Assembly (NCBI GenBank): GCA_030041435.1
Contig: JASHNW010000002.1
Coordinates: 1 to 64,000 of the forward strand
Length of the DNA stretch: 64,000 bases
Direction: 5' to 3'
Source: Acidobacteriaceae bacterium
GTDB taxonomy: Bacteria; Acidobacteriota; Terriglobia; Terriglobales; Acidobacteriaceae
The translations under genes were made by a program, and so were the position numbers. Positions 37,551-48,775 of the stretch are shown here, one piece after another. The notes below the pieces were generated by a model. That model had not been told where the DNA came from. It worked only from the letters and a program-made list of their open reading frames with translations, and made no database searches. Within the stretch, counting starts at the first letter, position 1; every line of letters begins with the position of its first letter.

Positions 37551-37766
37551 ATGGTGACACCCATCGACGCGGTTCGCTCTGGTATGGGCTTCGATGCAGC
37601 CGGCCACTGGCATCAGGCGAAGCCTCGGTTCAGGCCTGCGCAGTACACGGGAACGGATGAGGATCCACTGGCCCCGGCACGCGGCGCGACGTTCGGATTG
37701 CTGATGAGCGCCGCATTGTGGATCGGCCTGGTCGCTCTCGGCAAGGCGCTTCTCAACCTGTTCTGA
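37551..37766 (+). CDS. small single-helix membrane protein, hypothetical
   Basis: A 71-residue protein with a polar N-terminal half and one C-terminal membrane helix (about residues 48-70: F-G-L-L-M-S-A-A-L-W-I-G-L). A strong AAGGAG element eight bases before ATG 37551 supports real translation, and a CRP-like site lies upstream. No family recognised. Confidence 0.6.
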   Translation: MVTPIDAVRSGMGFDAAGHWHQAKPRFRPAQYTGTDEDPLAPARGATFGLLMSAALWIGLVALGKALLNLF

Positions 37767-38504
37767 TACTCGATATCCATCGCAACCGCCGCGGCCTGTC
37801 CGCGCCTGAACCTGCCTTTTCCCTGGCGGGTTCGGGCGATTTCGAAATGCGATCGCCAGGTCGTACAGGTTGCGGGCGATCATCGGGTGGGCAGACAGAT
37901 CAAACCTTTGGTGGAGGCGCAACGCCACAGCTGTTCCGCCAGCCTTCGATACACGCGGCGCAAGCCTGATTCCGAAGTCGGAAGTCATCCTGCTGGACGC
38001 CGGACATTTCCTCCCTATGAGCGAATCCGCCGTCATCGCCCGCGAGCTTGTGCGCCTCTTCAGCGCGAATCGCGGGCTCGAAACGCAATGGCCCGCGTCC
38101 GCAGCCGATTAGCGAATCGCTCGGCCTCACCCAACGCATATTCGTTTTCAACTGCGCCAGATGGGCAACGGAGACAAACGGATGCCCCGCCCCTCGATGG
38201 AGCCTGGATTCAATCGGACGGTTGATGACAAGGTCTTTCACATTCTTCGATGATTACCGCGGCACTCAACTCTGACCCCTGACCTGGCTGAAATTGCTTC
38301 ACGATCCCCTGGAGAGTCGCAGGCATCGCGGCTCTGCGTGTTCCTGAACCCATCGTAGTAAACCGCCCGGACAAGGCTCCGGCTAAAGGACTCTGGTCCG
38401 CAAAACCGGTTTTGAATCGGCGCAGCTATATGTCCTTGCCCATGACCTTCTTATCGGGTTATGTGGCGGGATAACAGGCTGGAGCACAACTCTTTGGAGG
38501 TTTT
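37767..38504. other. intergenic region with gene relic upstream of TonB-dependent receptor
   Basis: Over 700 bases without an intact gene. 37972-38112 holds the relic tail of an alpha/beta-hydrolase. From 38113 to 38490 I see no gene or clear regulatory site. The TGGAGG element near 38496 belongs to the receptor gene. Confidence 0.55.
37972..38112 (+). pseudogene. relic C-terminus of alpha/beta-hydrolase
   Basis: The frame reads K-S-E-V-I-L-L-D-A-G-H-F-L-P-M-S-E-S-A-V-I-A-R-E-L and on to a stop. This is the usual last strand, catalytic histidine (A-G-H-F) and final helix of alpha/beta-hydrolases. Nothing upstream in any frame supplies the nucleophile elbow or core, so the rest has been lost. 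It is a short match and could be coincidental. Confidence 0.35.
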
Positions 38505-41500
38505 GTGAAACTTCGCAGTTATTCCGCAGGGTTTGGTGTGCTGTTCATCGTCGGCACAGCTCTCTTTGCCGTTCGCGCTCATGCGCAGGCGACAACAGCA
38601 TCGATTCATGGCACGATCACCGATCCGAATGGTGCGGTGCTGCCCAATGCGAGCGTAACCGCGCTCAATACGAGCACGGGCATTACAGTCAGCGAGAAGA
38701 CCGACAGCAAAGGTTATTTCATCTTCCCTAACCTCCACATCGGCGGTCCCTATTCGGTTAGCGTGGAGGATTCGGGGTTCCAGCGCTTCGTCGCAACCGG
38801 GATCATGCTGGACCTTAGTTCGGCGCGAGAGGTGAACGCCACACTTCAAATCGGAACGTCGTCGGAGACTGTTCAGGTGGACGCGGACAAAGTTCAGGTT
38901 GAGTCTTCCGACGTTCAGCTCAAGAATGTAATCGCTGCTCGGGAGCTGGAGGATCTTCCCACGCTCGGACGCGACGCCATACAGCTGCAGAAGACTGCAC
39001 CGGGAACTGTGGAGGCCTCGGATCGCGAGGCTACATTCTCAACCAACGGGAGTCAAACCCAGGAGAATTCCTACCTGCTGGATGGAACCGACATCAACGA
39101 TTTTCTGCTGAATCAGCCGGGGATTACGGTGAACCCCGATGCCCTGGCGGAAGTTAATGTGATTTCCAGCACGCTCGATCCGGAGTTCAGCCGTAACTCG
39201 GGAGCAATCGTTGACGAGGCGCTGAAGAGCGGTACCAATGAGTTCCATGGCGACGGTTTCGAGTTTTATCGCGACACTTTTTTGAATAACGGCAACTTCT
39301 TCTCAGCCACGCGCCCCGGTTTCCATCAGAACGTTTTCGGCGGCACGCTGGGGGGACCGATCCGGAAACATCATGCTTTCTTTTTTGTTGCCTATCAGGG
39401 ACTGCGCAACCGCACTGCCCAAACGCAGTTGACTCCGGTTTTCTCCGGCGCCCAGCGGCAGGGAAACTTCTCGGCCGACGAAGCGCAGTTTTCAAGTAAG
39501 CCGATTCCGTTTCCGGCCGGGCTGAACGGGCCGTCGGGATTCTGCCCGGCGGGAACTGCGTGGAATGCCTGCTTCCCGAACGCGCAGATTCCGGCAGCCG
39601 ACTTTAACTCGATTGCAGGCAATCTGCTGAGCAAGTACGTGCCTGCATCGAACTACACGAGTGCCGGCATCGATTATTACGATTTCAACGCACCGAACAC
39701 TTCCGCGGACGACCAGGGCATCATTCGAATCGACGACCAGTTAACCTCGCGGGACGCGCTATGGGCATCGACAATCTTCGATTCCAGCCCGGCTATGAAC
39801 ACTCTGCCGCTGCCAGCTACTGAATCGACCGGAACCGGTGCGACGCTGCCGGGATTCGCCGCTGACAATTCATCCCACACCAAAATCTTCAACGCGTCGT
39901 GGACCCATGTGTTCAACAGCACGAAGCTGAATGAGCTGCGCGCCGGCTATTTCCGGTTCAATTATGCGGAACTGGAACCGGCTGCGGCAACGCTGGCCGC
40001 GCCTTCTTCGTTCGGTTTCAATATTGTGCCGCAGGATGCTGCCGCAGGGACGCTGCCGTTCATCAACGTGAACGGCTATTTCGCACTCGGCTTCAGCACC
40101 AACGGGCCTCAACCGCGAAAAGATGAGAACTACACTTACTTTGATAACTTCAGCAAAGTGATAGGAAACCATGATCTGAAGTTCGGGGCAAATACAGAGA
40201 GATTCATCATCAGCAATCCGTACTACGCGAATAACAGTGGCGCATTTCTCTTCAATGCCTCAGCAACCTACAGCACGGGCGACCCGGCCGCTGACTTCCT
40301 GCTCGGGATTCCGGCTACTTACAGCCAGGGGTCGGGTTTCTTTGTCGACGTGCGGGCAGCGCAGTATTACGCCTATGCCCAGGACCACTGGAAGGCGTCC
40401 GATACGCTCAGTCTGGCATACGGCATGGGCTACGAAGTGGAGACTCCGTACCAGAACCTGCAATACGATGGAGTCGGAGTAACCTGCTGGACTCCCACCG
40501 ATGCCCAGTCAAAGGTTTTTCCCGGGGCTCCTCCCGGGCTCCTTTATCCGGGCGATTCCGGCTGCAACCGGAACGGCAGCCCAACGACGCATTGGGATCA
40601 TTTCTCACCCCGCGTTGGATTTGCCTGGTCCCCGAATGGCGGCTTTGGTGCGCTGTCGGGTCCGCCGGGGCAGCGCGCTTTCGTGGTTCGCGGAGGTTTT
40701 GGGGTGTACTGGAACCGCGTACAGGGAGAGGGTGCACAGGTCAACTCGAATGATCCGCCATTCTCAGAGAGCAGTGTCGGCGCGGCTGGATTAGGCGGCA
40801 ACCCGAGCTTTGCCAATCCGTTTGCGGATATCGCCGGCACTCCTGGGGCTTCGTACCCGGCAAATCCTTTTCCTTATTCCGTTCCCAAACCCGGGCAGAA
40901 TGTGAACTTTATGTCTCTTTATCCTTTGGAGATGGATAACCTGACATCGGATTTTGACGTCCCCTACACGTATAACTACAACCTGAACATACAGCGCGCC
41001 CTGCCCAGCAATATGGTACTGACGGTCGGTTATGTCGGCTCGACGGGCAGAAAACTGGACCGCGCCAGGGAAGGCGATCCGATTACTCAGCAGGGCCATG
41101 ACGATTGTCTGAATGGCACCGGCTCCAGTACGCCGATCAGCCTCTATGTCGGCCAGAGTCTCAGGACTTTCACTTGCCTGCAGTTAGCCGGATCGCAGTC
41201 GCTTTATTTCCCGGGAGAGAAATTGCAGCCAGGAACGGTTCCAGAAACGCAGATACCAGGAGTTTTTCCGAACGGGGTACCGTATTACCTTTCAATCGGC
41301 GGGATGCACACCAGCGGGTCTTCCAGCTATGACTCGCTGCAGGTATCACTGGCAAAAGCTCCAACACATGGTTTGTATTTTTCTCTTGCCTACACGTACA
41401 GCCATGCTTTGGACAATGCTTCCAGCCTGGAAGACTCCGTGGCAAACGGCTATGGCACAAACTATGTTCCCGGCTTTGAGGGTCGGAGCTATGGAGATTC

Positions 41501-42107
41501 CGCCTACGATGCGCGGCAGCGGCTCGTGGGCCTTTATAACTACGAAATTCCAGTATTGCGGGGAATCCGGTACATACCTTTGGTGCGCTCTGCTTTGGGC
41601 GGCTGGCACTTCTCAGGAATTACAACACTGCAAACCGGGTTCCCGATCACCATCTACGACGCAGGAGTCTATAACTCGCTGTATTGCGATCAATTCAGCT
41701 TTGTGAACTGTCCGGATGTTCCAAATACCTCGACTTTCCGCATTCAAACGGAAAATCCCAGGAATCCGGGCCACTACTGGTTCAATCCGGCGACCTTCAC
41801 TCAGGAGCCGATCGGCACCTTCGGCAATGTTAAGCGTAACTTCTTCCACGGCCCCGGATTTAACTATTCGAACTTCGAAGTGTACAAGAATATTCCGCTG
41901 AGAGGCTTCGAAAACCCGCGTTCCATTCAGGTGCGTCTGGAAGCCTATAACGCCTTCAACCATGCGAACTTTGCGAATCCCAGCGGCAATTTTGGAGCCG
42001 GCCCCACGGTCTTCGGTGTGATCGATTCGGTCGATCAGCCGATCAACGCGGGAGGCGATCCGCAGCCTGGGCGCGCCATTCAACTCGCCGGGAAGTTCTA
42101 CTTTTAG
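38505..42107 (+). CDS. Oar-like TonB-dependent receptor
   Basis: A 1200-residue outer-membrane protein. Order: signal peptide (to about A-H-A-Q), a carboxypeptidase-regulatory-like beta-sandwich (about residues 32-110, I-H-G-T-I-T-D-P-N-G-A-V-L-P), a plug domain with N-S-Y-L-L-D-G-T-D, then a long beta-barrel ending in an aromatic residue (K-F-Y-F). This is the Oar/SusC-like receptor type that is expanded in acidobacteria and linked to uptake of oligosaccharides or peptides. It starts at GTG 38505 with TGGAGG in front. Base composition looks less GC-rich than that of neighbours. No TonB or partner lipoprotein adjoins it, so the ligand is unknown. Confidence 0.93.
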   Translation: MKLRSYSAGFGVLFIVGTALFAVRAHAQATTASIHGTITDPNGAVLPNASVTALNTSTGITVSEKTDSKGYFIFPNLHIGGPYSVSVEDSGFQRFVATGIMLDLSSAREVNATLQIGTSSETVQVDADKVQVESSDVQLKNVIAARELEDLPTLGRDAIQLQKTAPGTVEASDREATFSTNGSQTQENSYLLDGTDINDFLLNQPGITVNPDALAEVNVISSTLDPEFSRNSGAIVDEALKSGTNEFHGDGFEFYRDTFLNNGNFFSATRPGFHQNVFGGTLGGPIRKHHAFFFVAYQGLRNRTAQTQLTPVFSGAQRQGNFSADEAQFSSKPIPFPAGLNGPSGFCPAGTAWNACFPNAQIPAADFNSIAGNLLSKYVPASNYTSAGIDYYDFNAPNTSADDQGIIRIDDQLTSRDALWASTIFDSSPAMNTLPLPATESTGTGATLPGFAADNSSHTKIFNASWTHVFNSTKLNELRAGYFRFNYAELEPAAATLAAPSSFGFNIVPQDAAAGTLPFINVNGYFALGFSTNGPQPRKDENYTYFDNFSKVIGNHDLKFGANTERFIISNPYYANNSGAFLFNASATYSTGDPAADFLLGIPATYSQGSGFFVDVRAAQYYAYAQDHWKASDTLSLAYGMGYEVETPYQNLQYDGVGVTCWTPTDAQSKVFPGAPPGLLYPGDSGCNRNGSPTTHWDHFSPRVGFAWSPNGGFGALSGPPGQRAFVVRGGFGVYWNRVQGEGAQVNSNDPPFSESSVGAAGLGGNPSFANPFADIAGTPGASYPANPFPYSVPKPGQNVNFMSLYPLEMDNLTSDFDVPYTYNYNLNIQRALPSNMVLTVGYVGSTGRKLDRAREGDPITQQGHDDCLNGTGSSTPISLYVGQSLRTFTCLQLAGSQSLYFPGEKLQPGTVPETQIPGVFPNGVPYYLSIGGMHTSGSSSYDSLQVSLAKAPTHGLYFSLAYTYSHALDNASSLEDSVANGYGTNYVPGFEGRSYGDSAYDARQRLVGLYNYEIPVLRGIRYIPLVRSALGGWHFSGITTLQTGFPITIYDAGVYNSLYCDQFSFVNCPDVPNTSTFRIQTENPRNPGHYWFNPATFTQEPIGTFGNVKRNFFHGPGFNYSNFEVYKNIPLRGFENPRSIQVRLEAYNAFNHANFANPSGNFGAGPTVFGVIDSVDQPINAGGDPQPGRAIQLAGKFYF

Positions 42108-42216
42108 AATGACGCGCAGTTGGGCGGGAAGGAATGAAGTGCCACGCTGCTGTCCCCTCTGCTGAGCGAGAGACGATGCCAAAAGGGCTGGAGACACCGA
42201 AACCATGCCAGAGCGA

Positions 42217-42311
42217 TGGCGGAAGTGCGTGTGAGTCGAACACACCGTCGCCCGTTCAGGACGACCGCCGGTTTTGAAGACCGGGAGGGTCACCGGAGCC
42301 CTGGCACTTCC
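42217..42311 (-). tRNA. selC: tRNA-Sec (anticodon UCA)
   Basis: Read on the minus strand, the 95-base gene has an 8-bp acceptor stem (GGAAGTGC with GCACTTCC) and a 5-bp T-stem (GTGTG/CACAC), giving the 13-bp arm typical of bacterial tRNA-Sec. The anticodon arm is CCGGT-CTTCAAA-ACCGG with anticodon UCA at 42277-42275. The long variable arm has a 7-bp stem (GTCGTCC/GGGCGAC). The D-loop contains TCCGGTGA as in E. coli selC, and the terminal GCCA is encoded. It decodes UGA as selenocysteine after SelA converts its seryl form. It lies on the strand opposite selD, 78 bases away. Confidence 0.96.
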
Positions 42312-42389
42312 GCGTCTGGCCGACAGTCCCGCTATGATACCAGGTTGTAACCGGTGCTGCCACGTGCATTCCCTGAACAAGAGAGGTCC

Positions 42390-43427
42390 ATGAGGCTCAC
42401 ACAGCAGGTCAAAGCCGGAGGGTGCGCCAGCAAGCTGGCTCCCGGCTCTCTGCGCGCCGCTCTCGACACGCTGCCTCAGCGCAGCGATCCCAACCTTCTG
42501 GTCGGCTTCGACCAGTCGGACGATGCCGGAGTCTACCGTATCGACAAAGACCGAGCGCTGGTGCAAACCGTGGATTTCTTCACTCCAATGGTCGACGACC
42601 CCTGGACGTTCGGCCAAATCGCCGCGGCAAATGCCTTAAGCGACGTGTATGCGATGGGCGGCTCTCCGCTGACCGCGCTGGCAATCGTATGCTTCCCGCA
42701 GGACGGCGAACTCGAAGTGCTCGGGCAAATTCTGCGCGGAGGAATGTCGAAGCTGGATGAAGCGGGCTGCACGGTGGTCGGCGGCCACTCCGTGCGCGAT
42801 ACGGAGATCAAATTTGGTTATGCGGTCACGGGACTCATCCATCCCGACCGCGTGTACACCAACGGCGGCGCTCGCGCGGGCGACCTGCTTGTGCTGACCA
42901 AGCCGATTGGCACCGGAGTGATCACCACCGCGCTCAAGCAGGGTAAGGCAAATGAGGTATGGGTGGAAGGCGCCATCCGTTCCATGACCACTCTGAACAA
43001 GGCTGCGGTCGGCGTGATCGCGCAGCACGGCGGAGTGCACGCCATGACAGATGTAACCGGATTCGGCCTGATGGGACACGGTCGCGAGATGGCCCTGGCG
43101 AGTGGAGCGAGTCTCGAAATCCAATTCCAAAAGGTGCCACGCCTCGAGGGCGCACTGGAGGCGATCGCTCTCGGCGCAATTCCCGCCGGATTGCATGCGA
43201 ACCGCGAATATGCGGAGTGTATGGTGTCCGAAGAGGATGTTCTGGACGATACACTGCGCATGTTGATGTACGATCCTCAGACCTCGGGCGGACTGCTGGT
43301 GAGTGTGGATTCAGGCTACGCGGATTCTCTGGTGCAAGCTCTCGAGAACGCGCACGTGGCGGCGCGCACGATCGGCCGTGTGATGGCCGACAAGCCAGGT
43401 CTCGTCCTTCGCGGAAGTGATGCATGA
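42390..43427 (+). CDS. selD: selenide, water dikinase
   Basis: A 345-residue ATP-dependent enzyme making selenophosphate, the selenium donor for Sec-tRNA. The active-site motif reads G-G-C-A-S-K, with Cys12 and Lys15 in the positions of the essential Cys and Lys; the second Cys of E. coli SelD is Ser14 here. Downstream blocks N-A-L-S-D-V-Y-A-M-G-G, G-G-H-S-V-R-D-T-E and T-D-V-T-G-F-G-L-M-G-H are intact. ATG 42390 has GAGAGG upstream. The stop overlaps selA by four bases. It encodes Cys, not Sec, at the active site, so it does not need its own product. Confidence 0.96.
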   Translation: MRLTQQVKAGGCASKLAPGSLRAALDTLPQRSDPNLLVGFDQSDDAGVYRIDKDRALVQTVDFFTPMVDDPWTFGQIAAANALSDVYAMGGSPLTALAIVCFPQDGELEVLGQILRGGMSKLDEAGCTVVGGHSVRDTEIKFGYAVTGLIHPDRVYTNGGARAGDLLVLTKPIGTGVITTALKQGKANEVWVEGAIRSMTTLNKAAVGVIAQHGGVHAMTDVTGFGLMGHGREMALASGASLEIQFQKVPRLEGALEAIALGAIPAGLHANREYAECMVSEEDVLDDTLRMLMYDPQTSGGLLVSVDSGYADSLVQALENAHVAARTIGRVMADKPGLVLRGSDA

Positions 43428-44917
43428 TGCCGGCAGCGACCAAACCTATTCCGGGCGGAGAAGATTCGCGGCATGCCCTGGATGCGCTTTACCGCGCGCT
43501 GCCCCCGGTGAACGAGCTCCTGCTCGCGCCGCCGCTCGCCGAGTTCGGTTCGCCCCATGGACGCGCACGTTTGCTGGAGACCATTCGCCGCGTACTGGAC
43601 GGCACCCGACGTGAGATTGCGCAGGGACTTCACTCGTCCGCGAGCCTCGAAAACCTTGTCCGCGAGTTGCCCGCGCGAATCCTGGAAGAGATGCGGCGTA
43701 ATTCGCGGTTTTCTCTGCGGCGGGTGATCAATGCAACGGGCGTGATCCTGCACACCAATCTGGGCCGCGCGCCGCTCAGCCGCATCGCACTGGATCATTT
43801 GTGCGAGGTGGCCGGCGGCTATTCCAATCTTGAGTTCGATCTCGAACGAGGGGGGCGGGGCAGGCGCGATGTGCACGCCGAATCCGCGCTGCTTGCGCTG
43901 CTCAGTCAAACCGAATCGGCTCACTTCGAGCAGACGCATCGAGCGATCTTCGTGAACAACTGTGCTGCTGCTACCTTTCTGGCGATGCATTCGCTGGCCC
44001 GCGGCAGGCAAGTGCTGGTTTCGCGGGGAGAGCTGGTGGAAATCGGCGGAGGATTTCGTATTCCCGAGATCCTCGCAGAGTCGGGCGCAGAGCTTTGTGA
44101 GGTGGGAACGACCAACCGAACGCGGGTATCGGACTACGAGAAGGCCATCACAAGTGAGACGGCACTGATCCTGCGTGTGCATCAATCGAACTTCGCGATG
44201 TACGGCTTCGTCGAACGGCCCAGGCTGGAGGAACTGATCGCACTGGGCAGGCGGGCAGGGGTCTGCATTTTCGAAGATCAGGGCACCGGCCTTGTCGAAA
44301 CACTCGAGCCCTGCGGCGTTCGCGATGAACCGACGATCGCCGGCAGTGTGGCCCGGGGTTGCGACCTCGTGGCGGCCAGCGGCGACAAGCTGTTCGGCGG
44401 TCCGCAGTGCGGCATCCTCGTGGGACGCACAGAATGGGTCGATCGTGTTCGCAGCAGCCCTCTCTACCGCGTCTTCCGGGCCGACAAGCTCAACTTCGCG
44501 GCGCTGGAGGCGACGCTGATCCAGTATCTCTATGGCGATCCTGAGTCAGTCCCTGTAATTCGTATGCTGCGCACGCCGGAAGACGCTATCCGGCGTCGTT
44601 GCGAAGACATCGCGGGCGCGGTCGATCACGCCGACATCATCCTGGCGGTTACCGCTGTGAAAAGCATCATCGGCGGCGGGACTGCGCCAAAAAGCACATT
44701 GCCCAGCCATGCCCTCGCCCTGAAGCATGCACAGCTGGATGCGCCGGCGCTGCTGGCCGCGCTGCGAAGGCTCGACCCGCCCATCATCGGCCGCATCGAA
44801 GAGGATCGGGTGCTGCTGGATCTGCGCACCGTCGAGCCGGAGTTCGACAGGCTCCTGATCGGCACGCTGAACCAGCGTGTCGATTCCTGGCGGGGCATCT
44901 CCGGAGAACCGAGCTGA
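43424..44917 (+). CDS. selA: L-seryl-tRNA(Sec) selenium transferase
   Basis: A 497-residue PLP enzyme that converts seryl-tRNA-Sec to selenocysteyl-tRNA-Sec using selenophosphate. The N-terminal domain has [20 protein letters not shown]. The PLP lysine is Lys322 in [11 protein letters not shown]. Length and order match bacterial SelA. It is coupled to selD (ATG inside the selD stop) and is followed by selB after two bases. Confidence 0.97.
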
Positions 44918-44919
44918 CG

Positions 44920-46839
44920 ATGATGGATCGGTCTTCCTTCAGGGCGCCAGCGGCCCGGTCCGTGGTGCTTGGCACCGCGGGGCACATCGACCATGGCAAA
45001 ACCGCGCTCGTGCGTGCACTGACGGGGATCGACACCGATCGCCTTCCGGAAGAGAAGCGACGCGGGATCACGATCGATTTGGGATTTGCGTCCCTCGAGA
45101 CACAGGCACCGGACGGAGCGTCTTTGCGTCTGAGCTTTGTCGACGTGCCGGGACATGCCCGATTCGTGCGCAACATGCTGGCAGGCGCCGCCGGCATCGA
45201 TGCTGTGCTGATGGTGATCTCGGCGGAAGAAGGCGTGATGCCGCAGACTGAAGAACATTTGGCGATCTGCTCTCTGCTTGGCATTGAGCGCGGACTCACG
45301 GTCCTGACAAAAACAGATGCGGTGAGCGAAGAACGCCTGCTGGCAACGACGCGGGCGGTGAAGAGCTTCGTGCGCGGCACGCTGCTCGCCGACGGTCCGG
45401 TCATCGCCGTGAGTGCGCATTCCGGTTCCGGAATCGCCGAGCTTCGCCGCGAACTGATTGGACTGGCCTCCAGGGTTCCGGTCCGGAACCCTGACGCGGT
45501 CCTGAGGCTGCCCATCGATCGTGTGTTCGTAATGAAAGGATTTGGAACCGTGGTGACCGGCACGCTGATCGGAGGCTCGATTCGCGCGGGAGACGAACTT
45601 GGGATCCTGCCGGGGGACCGCACAACCCGAGTCCGCGGCATTCAGGTACACGGCCGGGCGGAAGAAGAAGCCTGCGCCGGGTCGCGGGTGGCCCTGAATC
45701 TGGCGCACATCGAGACGGCAGAGCTCAGGCGCGGCGACATTCTAACCAGGCCGTCTTCGCTTCAGGCGGTCGATATTCTCGATGTTGAATTGAGCGTGCT
45801 GAGCGGTGCATCGCCGCTGAAGCACCGCGCCAGCGTCCATTTCCACGCGTTTGCCTCGGAGTGCATCGCCACTGTCACGCTCTACGACGCAACCTCGGCC
45901 GGAGCGGGTGAAACCAGGCTGGCACGGCTCCGCCTCCGGGAGCCGGCGGCACTCCTGCCGGATGACCGGTTCGTCCTGCGCCTGGGGACGCCGATCACGA
46001 CCATTGGCGGCGGCCGCATTCTCGATACTCAACCGTCTGCACAGAAGCGAAAGGCGAAGACTGCCGAATGGCTGCGCAAGCTGTGCGCCGCGCCTTCCGA
46101 GGAGCGGATCTGGCTGCGCGTGGCAAGGCGAGGAGTTACGGGAATCTCCGGGAAGGAGCTTTCCCGCGAAACGGGGGGCACGGAGGCCGCGCTCGATGGA
46201 CTCGTGCAGCGCTGGATTCAAGAGGGCCGCGTCCATTTGGCCGGAGACACATGCCTCCTCACGCAGGAGTTCTTCGCCGTGGCGCGTCAATCCATTCTGG
46301 AGCAGCTTGGCAAGCGCAGCGGGGCCGGTTCTTCGGGTGTGAGGAGATCGGAGCTGAGGGAACAGATCGGCCTTGGCCCGGAGGTCTTTGACGACGCCCT
46401 CGGTAGTCTGGAGCAGGAGCGCCAACTGCACGTGGCCGGGGAGTTTGTAAGGCTGTTTGCCTCAGCCTCATTGCCCAGTGGTGATCGCGATCGGATGTCG
46501 GCCGTTGCAGAGGAGTTCGAGCGAGCCGGCATCGCTCCTCCCTCCCCCGATGAGATGGCAACGCGGCTGGGAATTGCTCCCGCCGAGATGCGCCGGCTGA
46601 TCACGCTGCTGCTTCGCGCCGGAACGCTCGTCCGGTTGAGCGACGACTCGTTGTGCATGCATCGGCGTGTGCTCGAGGCCCTGACGGACAGAATACGCGG
46701 CCTGCGCGGCCAGGCCCTGGATATAGCCACCTTCAAACAACTGGCAGGGGTATCGCGCAAATATGCGATTCCGCTGCTCGAGTATCTGGACCGCGAAAGA
46801 ATCACGGTAAAGCAGGGAAGCCAGCGGCTCGTCCTGTGA
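44920..46839 (+). CDS. selB: selenocysteine-specific translation elongation factor
   Basis: A 639-residue GTPase that carries Sec-tRNA-Sec to UGA codons next to a SECIS hairpin. The G1 motif G-H-I-D-H-G-K-T is near residue 22, [10 protein letters not shown] and D-V-P-G-H follow, then T-K-T-D. EF-Tu-like domains 2 and 3 come next. The C-terminal 250 residues contain the winged-helix repeats that bind the SECIS RNA. Two ATGs (44920, 44923) are adjacent. It is last of the three synthesis genes and directly precedes two predicted selenoprotein genes. Confidence 0.96.
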
Positions 46840-46940
46840 TGAAACTCTTTGTGCCGCGTCCACTCAGCCCTCCTCCCAAAGGTCGAGGCGGCTGGATTGA
46901 CGTCATGATATAGTCCGAAGATCGCGAAGGCGGAGGAGCA
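46840..46940. other. gap between selB and first selenoprotein gene
   Basis: 100 bases. A strong GGAGGAG lies just before ATG 46941. A TATAGT at 46908-46913 could be a -10 but lacks a good -35. No terminator is seen, so read-through from selB is likely. Confidence 0.4.
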
Positions 46941-47522
46941 ATGGCTGACGGCGATACTAAAATCAGGCTGATTGAAGATGCCGATGCCACGGGCGATGTG
47001 GCTGCCGTCTATGACGAGTGGCGACAGAAGTCAGGCCGGCAAAAGATGCCAGGCATTCTGAAGTGCTTCAGCCATCGTCCGGATTTTCTTCGCGACGTGA
47101 TGAAGTTCAGCGACACGGTTCACTTTTCCGAAGGTCATCTCAGTCGCCGTCAAAAGGAAGCGATCGCCAGCTGGGTATCGTGGCTGAATCGATGTCCGTA
47201 TTGACTGGACTCGCATGCTTACTTCCTGCGGGTTCAGGGAGCAGAAGAAAAAACGGTGCAGGCGCTGGCGCAGGGCAGGCTGGATGAGGCGGAACTAAGC
47301 CAGGCGGAACGCGCGCTGCTCGACTATGTGAAGAAGGTGACCGAGGCCGCGTACCGGACCACACCGGAAGATGTCCAGATATTGCGGGAGCATGGCTGGA
47401 CCGAGCCGCAGATTGCCGAAGCCGTCTACATTACCGCGATGTTTGCCTTCTTCAATCGGGTCGCGGATGCGTTCGGGATTCCGCCGCAAGGCTATCTGGA
47501 GGCGAACGCGGTGACGAAGTGA
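46941..47522 (+). CDS. AhpD-like selenoprotein (Sec at in-frame TGA 47202)
   Basis: Read through TGA at 47202-47204, this is a 193-residue carboxymuconolactone decarboxylase/AhpD-like protein. Sec88 lies in N-R-C-P-Y-U-L-D-S-H-A-Y, where relatives have C-P-Y-C-x-D-S-H, so U replaces the second cysteine of the C-x-x-C redox centre; Cys85 and His92 are intact. Similarity continues in frame on both sides (R-R-Q-K-E-A-I-A-S-W-V-S before, M-F-A-F-F-N-R-V-A-D-A-F-G-I-P-P after), as expected for recoding, not for a pseudogene. A hairpin at 47223-47240 fits a SECIS. No signal peptide, so cytoplasmic. Such proteins reduce peroxides or disulfides; the substrate is unknown. GGAGGAG precedes the ATG. Confidence 0.88.
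47223..47240 (+). promoter_or_regulatory. candidate bacterial SECIS of the AhpD-like gene
   Basis: TTCCTG (47223-47228) pairs with CAGGGA (47235-47240), one pair being a G-U wobble, around the loop CGGGTT. The loop starts 24 bases after the TGA, within the range seen for bacterial SECIS elements, and carries G residues as SelB requires. It lies inside the coding sequence, as bacterial SECIS do. Confidence 0.65.
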
Positions 47523-47539
47523 TGTGAAGGATCCCAGGA

Positions 47540-48256
47540 ATGAAGGCGACGACAAGACGGAGACTGGCATGGATTGCGGGCAGTGTGGCAGTCGCGTGGC
47601 TCGGCTTCCTTGGATTCGTGGATTGGGCCATGCATCAGCCGCCCGAGACATTCGGCCATGTGATGGCTCACATGCCCATGCCCGCGTATTTTCTCTTCCC
47701 GTTTGAGACCATGTGGAACCAGGCCCGCCGCGGCCACATAAACCCGGGCGACCAGGCTCCGGATTTCGCAGTGAAAACGCTGGAAACCAGGACGCCGGTG
47801 CAGCTCGCCTCCCTGTGGACCTCGCAACCGGTCGTGCTGGTCTTTGGGAGCTATACCTGACCGCCTTTCCGGCGGGAGGTTCCCGCCCTGAACAAGCTGG
47901 CTCAGCAGTATAAGGATAAGATTGCGTTCTACGCGGTCTACATCCTTGAAGCACACCCCACCGACGTGTGGGAGATGCAGTCCAATGTTCACGACGGCGT
48001 CCTCTTCGCCAGTCCGAGGAACGAAGCTGAGCGATTCTCGGTTGCGGGCTCCTGTGTGCGGAAACTGGGAATCAAGTTTCCAGCTTTGGTCGATGGCTTC
48101 GATAACCGCGTCGAAGCCGCATATACAGGCTGGCCCGATCGCATGTATCTCATCGCTCCCGGCGGCCGCATTCTGTACAAAAGCAGGCCGGGGCCATTCG
48201 GTTTCCATCCTGAGGATCTGGCGGCTGCAATCACGCGCGCGGTGAAAGTTCACTAG
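47540..48256 (+). CDS. iodothyronine-deiodinase-like selenoprotein (Sec at in-frame TGA 47858)
   Basis: Read through TGA at 47858-47860, this is a 238-residue protein. A basic N-terminus and one membrane helix (about residues 10-28) anchor it, with the rest predicted outside the cytoplasm by the positive-inside rule. The thioredoxin-like domain has F-G-S-Y-T-U-P-P-F-R with Sec107, the hallmark of the deiodinase family (G-S-x-T-U-P-P-F). Downstream A-V-Y-I-L-E-A-H-P-T-D-V-W matches the deiodinase Y-I-x-E-A-H-x-S-D-G-W, and R-M-Y-L-I-A-P-G-G-R-I-L-Y matches its R-L-Y-V-I strand. A strong hairpin follows the TGA. Bacteria have no thyroid hormone, so the reaction is probably reductive dehalogenation or peroxide/thiol chemistry. 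It starts 17 bases after the AhpD-like gene. Confidence 0.9.
47871..47887 (+). promoter_or_regulatory. candidate bacterial SECIS of the deiodinase-like gene
   Basis: GGCGGG (47871-47876) pairs perfectly with CCCGCC (47882-47887) around the loop AGGTT. The loop starts 17 bases after the TGA and resembles the AGGTCT loop of the E. coli fdhF SECIS, including its paired G residues. Position and loop both fit SelB binding. Confidence 0.75.
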
Positions 48257-48360
48257 ATGCTGCTGCAGCGTATCCGCCACCGTTGCCGTGGAGCCGTCCG
48301 CGGCGGCAGCTCGTCACTCTGAACGAAGGCAGTTTCATGCCTGATGTGCGAAAAAGCGAA

Positions 48361-48462
48361 TCCTACCGTAACGTTCAGTTTCGAGCGGAGCCGGGAAATC
48401 GCCTTCTCCTGCATACCGATGGCCTGACCGGCGCGGAAGATGCCAACGGAGATATGTTCGGG
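48361..48462 (+). pseudogene. relic of SpoIIE/RsbU-type PP2C phosphatase
   Basis: The frame reads F-R-A-E-P-G-N-R-L-L-L-H-T-D-G-L-T-G-A-E-D-A-N-G-D, matching the L-x-P-G-D-x-L-L-L-Y-T-D-G-V-T-E-A motif near the C-terminus of RsbU-like phosphatases. Neither the catalytic start of the domain upstream nor its final helices downstream are found. So only a 100-base fragment of a lost gene remains. Confidence 0.5.
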
Positions 48463-48700
48463 AGGGGCGATGTTGCCGCAACTCGCCAATCTGATCAATC
48501 GCCTGGGCTCAGGAATGCGGGCTACAAGCCCGACCCTCGGCCTGTCGTTTGGCTGATCGCAGCCATTACCTCTCTTGCATGGGAAGCAAACAGGGACCAT
48601 CAAAAATCGACACGAGCGCTGGAACTGCGAATTCCGATCGTCCAGATTGCAAGCCAACATGGCGAACGATCTTCGCTCTCTCTGTCCTGGACATTTGCAG

Positions 48701-48775
48701 TGGTGGCCAGGGACGGGATCGAACCGCCGACGCCGGCCTTTTCAGGGCCGCGCTCTACCACTGAGCTACCTGGCC
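48701..48775 (-). tRNA. tRNA-Phe (anticodon GAA)
   Basis: Minus-strand 75-base tRNA. Acceptor stem GGCCAGG/CCTGGCC, D-arm GCTC-AGTGGTA-GAGC, anticodon arm CGGCC-CTGAAAA-GGCCG with anticodon GAA, T-arm GGCGG-TTCGATC-CCGTC, and encoded ACCA end. All arms fold without mismatch apart from one G-U pair. It stands alone between unrelated genes. Confidence 0.97.

Follow-up and report, generated by a model that had tools for sequence, protein, structure and literature searches.

A deiodinase-like gene with an in-frame TGA, located beside the selenocysteine machinery of an Acidobacteriaceae bacterium, very probably encodes a selenoprotein

Organization of the locus

The window analyzed here, a whole stretch of 64,000 nucleotides from an Acidobacteriaceae contig, carries a tRNA for selenocysteine (Sec), the genes selD, selA and selB, an AhpD-like gene with an in-frame TGA and a deiodinase-like gene, arranged in this order and spanning about 6 kb. 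The features considered below are as follows.

42217-42311, minus strand: tRNA-Sec, anticodon TCA (ARAGORN; Rfam RF01852, 66.5 bits)
42354-43427, plus strand: selD, Cys form (GGCASK; TIGR00476, 8.3e-114)
43424-44917, plus strand: selA (TIGR00474, 1.2e-147)
44599-46839, plus strand: selB (TIGR00475 above cut-off, match beginning at residue 122)
46941-47522, plus strand: putative AhpD/carboxymuconolactone-decarboxylase-like selenoprotein gene (CPYU; Pfam CMD, 2.9e-16; TIGR01926 above cut-off)
47202-47204, plus strand: in-frame TGA at residue 88 (Sec88) of the AhpD-like protein (the relatives compared have either TGA or a Cys codon)
47540-48256, plus strand: putative deiodinase-like selenoprotein gene, 238 aa, Sec107 (read-through translation; Pfam T4_deiodinase, 1.4e-26)
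47564-47620, plus strand: codons of the predicted N-terminal membrane anchor, residues about 9-27 (hydropathy maximum 1.97)
47858-47860, plus strand: in-frame TGA, very probably selenocysteine 107 (TGA in 45/77 and a Cys codon in 32/77 rows)
47871-47887, plus strand: SECIS-like hairpin with a 7-bp stem (GGCGGGA/TCCCGCC) and a GGT loop (covariation across relatives)
48053-48055, plus strand: codon of Cys172, the proposed resolving cysteine (Cys at this column in 51/63 rows of the domain alignment)
48701-48775, minus strand: tRNA-Phe, adjoining a segment of about 11 kb described below

The true start of selB probably lies later than position 44599, near 44950. Between the end of the AhpD-like gene and the start of the deiodinase-like gene lie 17 nt.

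An in-frame TGA very probably read as selenocysteine

With the TGA translated as Sec, the deiodinase-like frame runs from an ATG to a TAG and contains a single internal TGA. The motifs on which the original prediction relied (LVFGSYT-U-PPFRR, EAHPTDVW and RMYLI) are all present in this read-through translation. Under table 11, the same frame yields two pieces: the first starts at 47540 and has 106 residues, the second starts with the GTG codon at 47966 and has 96. This GTG is the first in-frame start past the TGA and is separated from it by 35 codons, and the split-gene reading would therefore leave the most constrained segment untranslated.

Homologues were gathered with tblastn, accepting E values up to 1e-10, in two sets of whole genomes (61 and 396) and in 43 named loci; the resulting rows were not made independent, and the same species may have entered more than once. 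Codon 107 is covered by 77 rows, one of them the window's own; it is TGA in 45 and TGT or TGC in 32, and no other codon occurs. Relatives carrying a true stop at this position would have spoken against a hidden Sec codon; among these rows, neither TAA/TAG nor any other non-Cys codon was found (0/77). Three further rows are without the site: a contig-end fragment (L100), a disrupted homologue (L053) and a homologue without its 5' part (L054). In L053 (3766-4415), the frame changes at the active site, reflecting either an assembly error or decay.

The TGA is kept in all 15 closely related rows. Compared in 105 pairs, these rows give a pN/pS of 0.327 for the part before the TGA, 0.218 for the part past it and 0.132 for the 40 codons that directly follow the TGA. 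The corresponding medians of dN/dS are 0.145, 0.096 and 0.076 (60, 93 and 104 pairs with unsaturated dS); because synonymous change in these rows is near saturation, both sets of values are rough. Judged from these substitution patterns, the sequence past the TGA is under purifying selection.

A SECIS-like hairpin follows the TGA. Its GGT loop starts 17 nt past the TGA and has the G in a small apical loop that is expected of bacterial selenoproteins, and the GGU loop stands at a fixed distance from the TGA in most TGA rows. Across 38 distinct rows, 78.6% of the hairpin cells are paired, compared with 61.2% after shuffling, and 33 cells are changed on both sides, compared with 11.7. The covariation score is 0.389 versus 0.154 for shuffled rows (0/500 shuffles as high), and the given register exceeds slid registers on both pairing and covariation. 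Counting the pairs in which any double change occurs gives no excess over shuffling (6 versus 5.0; 141/500), and by itself the window hairpin shows no unusual stability (z -0.96; 34/200 shuffles fold as well). Six or seven of the seven pairs form in 30/41 distinct TGA rows versus 0/30 distinct Cys rows. Fewer than five pairs form in the common register in 10/41 distinct TGA rows, most of which have a shifted hairpin, and L087 is the only TGA row without any hairpin by the rule applied here. These comparisons point to a covarying SECIS-like hairpin directly after the UGA that is formed across relatives.

The TGA could also be taken for a genuine stop, or for an error of sequencing, in a broken gene, and under table 11 the frame does end at 47860. 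However, the retention of TGA or Cys in many genomes, the selection downstream, the covarying hairpin and the Sec machinery next door make this reading extremely improbable. The gene, seemingly cut by a stop codon, very probably reads TGA as selenocysteine, and the codon usage across the 77 rows upholds the earlier proposal that a Sec-encoding TGA lies hidden in the frame.

Distribution of the selenocysteine machinery

A homologue with one TGA is present in 12 of the 61 searched genomes, the source genome included, and a tRNA-Sec match of at least 64 bits is found in 35 of the same 61. The 64-bit threshold was chosen here because tRNA-Ser-like matches near the Rfam cut-off also appear in control genomes. 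Strong tRNA-Sec matches occur in 11/12 genomes with the TGA-form gene versus 24/49 without it (Fisher p 0.009); the exception, G035, has the TGA gene and no strong tRNA-Sec, and its genome is 75% complete. Neither a strong tRNA-Sec nor a deiodinase-like TGA gene was found in the other genomes of the genus (0/11). In genome G055, two tRNA-Sec-like matches of 60.9 and 66.2 bits (contig C2, 1112064-1112158 and 1115713-1115807), both exceeding the Rfam cut-off, lie about 3.6 kb apart. A search of the source genome for the formate dehydrogenase alpha subunit gave no match over the cut-off and no stop inside matches.

Family membership, fold and active-site residues

The joined protein falls within Pfam T4_deiodinase (PF00837) with 93.7 bits (E 1.4e-26; cut-off 27), as a profile search had been expected to show. 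The broader families AhpC-TSA and Redoxin also score above their cut-offs. The peroxiredoxin motif is P-x-x-x-T/S-x-x-C, but the proline of this motif is lacking here: in the alignment of 63 catalytic domains used for all residue counts (A2), position -7 relative to residue 107 is Leu or Ile in 63/63 rows, and position -3 is Ser in 63/63. The NCBIfam deiodinase family NF038285 gives 190.9 bits over the C-terminal domain, under its curated cut-off of 250, and this model is longer (347 positions).

The best sequence matches in the PDB are Dio2 (1.2e-17) and Dio3 (2.7e-16). An AlphaFold2 model built from 63 rows reached a pLDDT of 95.5 and a pTM of 0.90, and Foldseek placed mouse Dio2 and Dio3 (9h48 and 4tr3) at ranks 1 and 2 for it. 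The structure prediction proposed earlier thus returned deiodinases as the nearest solved folds (Dio2 8.2e-14, Dio3 3.5e-13), with ResA next at 1.1e-9. Descriptions of Dio3 list a hydrogen-bond network of Ser167, Thr169, Tyr197, Glu200 and His202 (PMC7506546, PMC11592359). Their equivalents here, assigned by eye from the PDB sequence alignment, are highly conserved in A2: S104 in 63/63, T106 in 62/63, and Y134, E137 and H139 each in 63/63 rows, with U or C at position 107 in 63/63. In addition, W144, at the position of Dio Trp207, and R201 are each found in 57/63 rows. The position of Dio3 His219 and Dio2 His182 is His in 0/63 rows (Pro in 46, Ala in 16 and Thr in 1), and that of Dio3 Arg275, as read from the alignment, is Pro here and variable in the family.

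Together, the Pfam, PDB, fold and network-residue evidence places the protein, as sequence and model indicate, in the deiodinase (T4_deiodinase) branch of the thioredoxin fold, whereas deiodinase activity itself is only putative. The iodothyronine-deiodinase-like identity first proposed from the motifs is thereby supported by the family match and by Dio2 and Dio3 as best folds, and gene identity and Sec reading are now about as strong as evidence of this kind allows.

The position of ResA directly after the deiodinases raises the alternative of a ResA/TlpA-like oxidoreductase, of the type that serves thiol-disulfide exchange or cytochrome maturation, in which Sec would replace the first Cys. 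ResA-type proteins share a membrane-anchored, extracytoplasmic layout, and PRK03147 (ResA) is matched at 1.2e-7. However, CxxC or UxxC is absent from A2, in which the +3 residue is Phe in 54/63 and Leu in 9/63 rows; of the rows not included in A2, the divergent L099 carries Cys there. The NCBIfam ResA model gives 31.8 of the required 170 bits, far under its cut-off. We consider this alternative improbable. L099 itself is a TGA homologue outside A2 that reads FGSIT-U-PFC, a UxxC arrangement.

A second cysteine at varying positions

Each of the 63 A2 domains contains a second Cys, with exactly one in 60 rows, two in L058 and L086, and three in L069. It is C172 in 51/63 rows, and the other 12 have it elsewhere: at column 155 in L011, L084, L086, L087 and L089, at column 173 in L058, L097 and L098, at column 194 in L090, and at column 105 in L085, L088 and L091 only. 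Another Cys is therefore present in 12/12 rows without C172 versus 1/51 rows with it, a contrast between rows that share ancestry, so that a Fisher p is no true probability. In the tree, the column-155 rows and the column-105 rows each form a starred group and, together with L090, one nine-row group (support 90/78). On the tree as drawn, three losses of C172 may be enough, with Cys appearing in five separate new places.

The three column-105 rows are TGA homologues with FGSCT-U-PPF, the proximal-Cys arrangement ("SCTU") of animal Dio1 and Dio3; this proximal Cys is absent from the window protein. In human Dio1, it is described as bonding residue 126 and as required for reduction by glutathione (PMC9141512). 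Relative to the distal Cys of Dio2, C172 sits about eight residues earlier, as read from the alignment.

All 44 full-length Sec rows (43 in A2 plus L099) have a second Cys. Outside A2, L099 has two, one of which makes its UxxC, while L014, L095 and L096 have one Cys elsewhere; in L055, L065, L073, L075 and L077 it falls in the C172 region, and L079 and L094 are truncated. However, three of the seven divergent rows, L013, L015 and L016, all of them Cys forms, lack a second Cys in the domain, and the second-Cys rule thus fails for some Cys forms. From sequence, we infer a Sec-Cys resolving step. A broader generalization is offered tentatively, and with some doubt: the Sec form may always be accompanied by a second, resolving Cys whose place roams, being 172 mostly, otherwise 155, 173 or 194, or the animal SCTU place in one acidobacterial lineage. 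On this view, an older bacterial family of selenol reductases working outside the cytoplasm, perhaps dehalogenating or peroxide-reducing, would have arrived at several solutions, the recycling Cys of the animal enzymes being one of them.

Membrane anchor and orientation

The model predicts a helix over residues 3-31, within which hydropathy peaks at 1.97 (residues 9-27). Among the 15 close aligned rows, the first ten residues carry three to five Lys or Arg and residues 30-49 carry none to two. By the positive-inside rule, charge bias sets the side of the membrane, and the bias seen here places the catalytic domain outside the cytoplasm; the catalytic part is thus probably extracytoplasmic and held by the N-terminal helix. 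Of the proposed N-terminal anchor "as in the animal enzymes", the anchor stands, whereas the likeness to animals is only loose, given that the charge pattern suggests an extracytoplasmic domain.

Genomic surroundings and the AhpD-like neighbor

In 12 of the 16 named loci L037-L052, the gene immediately upstream is a close AhpD-like one, with SelB just 5' of it in 10 of those 12. In L043, only a 29% Cys-form AhpD-like match is found, and in L051 and L052 none. In L044 (Edaphobacter lichenicola), tRNA-Sec adjoins the gene, selD, selA and selB lie on the other strand, and there is no AhpD-like gene. Within the fetched flanks, some of them short, of the wider loci L101-L120, neither a close AhpD-like gene nor a sel gene was found (0/20). 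Across the 61 genomes, both TGA genes occur in two, the deiodinase-like gene alone in 10 and the AhpD-like gene alone in two, counting AhpD-like matches of at least 64% identity; weaker TGA matches in G040 (44%) and G053 (34%, also containing a TAG) were not counted. Cys homologues of the AhpD-like gene occur in five same-genus genomes at 45-47% identity. A hairpin in the AhpD-like gene was considered as a SECIS element and rejected, as the minimum-energy fold there is another one. An AhpD-like TGA gene in G018 (L123; contig C22, 20079-20636) is found without a strong tRNA-Sec in a genome that is 89% complete, reflecting a missing contig or decay.

The 17-nt spacing and the recurrence in 12/16 loci would suit a peroxidase-reductase pair of the deiodinase-like and AhpD-like selenoproteins, like AhpC/AhpD. 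However, the counts above show that the genes are separable, no close AhpD-like gene was found in the flanks of L101-L120, and the AhpD-like protein has no export signal by eye, while its partner is seemingly extracytoplasmic. Since the TGA genes are separate in most genomes and the proteins are probably on opposite sides of the membrane, such a pair is not our main reading and appears very improbable.

The segment from 37700 to 48700, about 11 kb, contains an OMP_b-brl_4 outer-membrane barrel gene, tRNA-Sec, selDAB and both selenoprotein genes. It was unmatched in the stretches taken from the same-genus genomes compared (8/8), of which G002 and G006 also keep parts of the 24.7-37.7 kb region, and the segment downstream of tRNA-Phe is kept in 11/11 other same-genus genomes. 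These flanks suggest gain here or loss elsewhere at tRNA-Phe. A genomic island was considered and rejected: tRNA repeats did not go beyond 10- to 14-base chance-level matches, and no integrase was found among the eight flanking frames scanned. Mobility is therefore not claimed. The Cys forms L055, L057, L060 and L064 (4/4 scanned) have TPR repeats in N-terminal extensions of about 350-450 residues, and TPR repeats are absent from the other Cys forms scanned (L013, L058 and L069); as a functional clue, these fusions gave no substrate and were set aside. L064 lies near an FG-GAP/ASPIC-UnbV gene, and no common partner emerged among ten neighboring proteins in nine loci, which include a transposase, glycosidases, a histidine kinase and a macroglobulin.

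Proposed function

We assign a probability of roughly 0.6 to the explanation as a whole, namely a membrane-anchored selenoprotein of the T4_deiodinase branch with Sec inserted at residue 107, located outside the cytoplasm, in which attack by Sec is followed by resolution through a second Cys. SelB, the neighboring tRNA-Sec and the hairpin after the UGA would insert Sec at residue 107, and the N-terminal helix would hold the catalytic domain outside the cytoplasm. Sec107, held by S104, T106, Y134, E137 and H139, would then attack an electrophilic oxygen or halogen of the substrate, after which the second Cys (C172 here) would resolve the oxidized selenium into a selenenylsulfide, to be recycled by a putative extracytoplasmic thiol relay. 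An extracytoplasmic selenol oxidoreductase is the most likely function on the sequence evidence, and selenol attack followed by resolution through a Cys, on the extracytoplasmic side, is a likely mechanism.

The chemistry of the animal enzymes, in which the selenolate is described as capturing iodine (PMC11592359), points to a more specific alternative, a reductive dehalogenase of halogenated aromatics in which the halogen would pass to Sec107 as a formal cation. The conservation of the Dio-specific residues, including W144 and R201, and the rank of Dio2 and Dio3 as nearest by sequence and fold are in its favor. However, the position of Dio His219 is never His, that of Dio3 Arg275 is Pro here and variable, and no halogen-metabolism gene was found among the neighbors scanned. 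Such a dehalogenase is therefore judged unlikely, and for the selenol oxidoreductase proposed here, a peroxide-type or other oxidant is likelier as the substrate than an iodinated thyronine. The halogenated aromatic or peroxide named in the original prediction is a candidate substrate.

Relation to known systems

Bacterial deiodinase-like proteins, both with Sec and with Cys, were described in 2005 from the Sargasso Sea survey, with the bacterial function thought to be unlike the animal one and a redox role considered possible (PMC1088965), in line with the original prediction that such selenoproteins are known in some bacteria. The family was recounted in 2008 in the GOS survey, with 22 Sec and 21 Cys sequences and one noted Prx-like/AhpD-like neighbor pair (PMC2398784), and reviews of 2022 and 2026 list it without a reaction in the text available (PMC13188914, PMC9312934). 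For Acidobacteria, a 2006 survey counted four selenoproteins (PMC1794560), and the deep-Sep paper gives three known selenoprotein genes for Occallatibacter riparius, without names in the part available (PMC12013277). Among the open-access matches listed, titles and abstract openings point to neither a tested bacterial enzyme of the family, which does not prove that none exists, nor a paper on this acidobacterial locus. The bacterial family itself has thus been known since 2005; the acidobacterial cassette and the roaming Cys are new, as far as the literature searches reach.

The locus offers a compact Sec set, named relatives (including Acidicapsa dinghuensis and E. lichenicola), clear mutants (U107 and C172) and natural variants with the animal-type Cys, which together make the bacterial substrate and the origin of the deiodinase recycling Cys testable. 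Compared with the peroxiredoxins (AhpC/TSA and Redoxin), the second Cys described here is reminiscent of theirs, which also stands at a varying place. The upstream gene meets TIGR01926 of the AhpD-like selenoproteins, the CxxU form of which is listed in PMC13188914, and its product is a neighbor of the deiodinase-like protein, not the same protein. With the Sargasso Sea and GOS proteins (PMC1088965, PMC2398784), the window protein shares the Pfam family PF00837, the occurrence of both Sec and Cys versions, and a SECIS-type hairpin closely following the UGA, but here the relatives belong to Acidobacteriota and the gene stands beside selDAB and tRNA-Sec. Two reviews give UxxC for the bacterial deiodinase-like family (PMC13188914, PMC9312934), whereas the motif here reads UPPF and +3 is occupied by Phe or Leu throughout A2; the divergent row L099 follows the UxxC form. 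With animal Dio1, Dio2 and Dio3, the protein has in common the GSxTUPPF and EAHPxDxW motifs, the Ser/Thr/Tyr/Glu/His network, the fold of the catalytic domain and an N-terminal anchor; it differs from them in that the bacterial rows do not have their His219 and in its likely extracytoplasmic catalytic domain.
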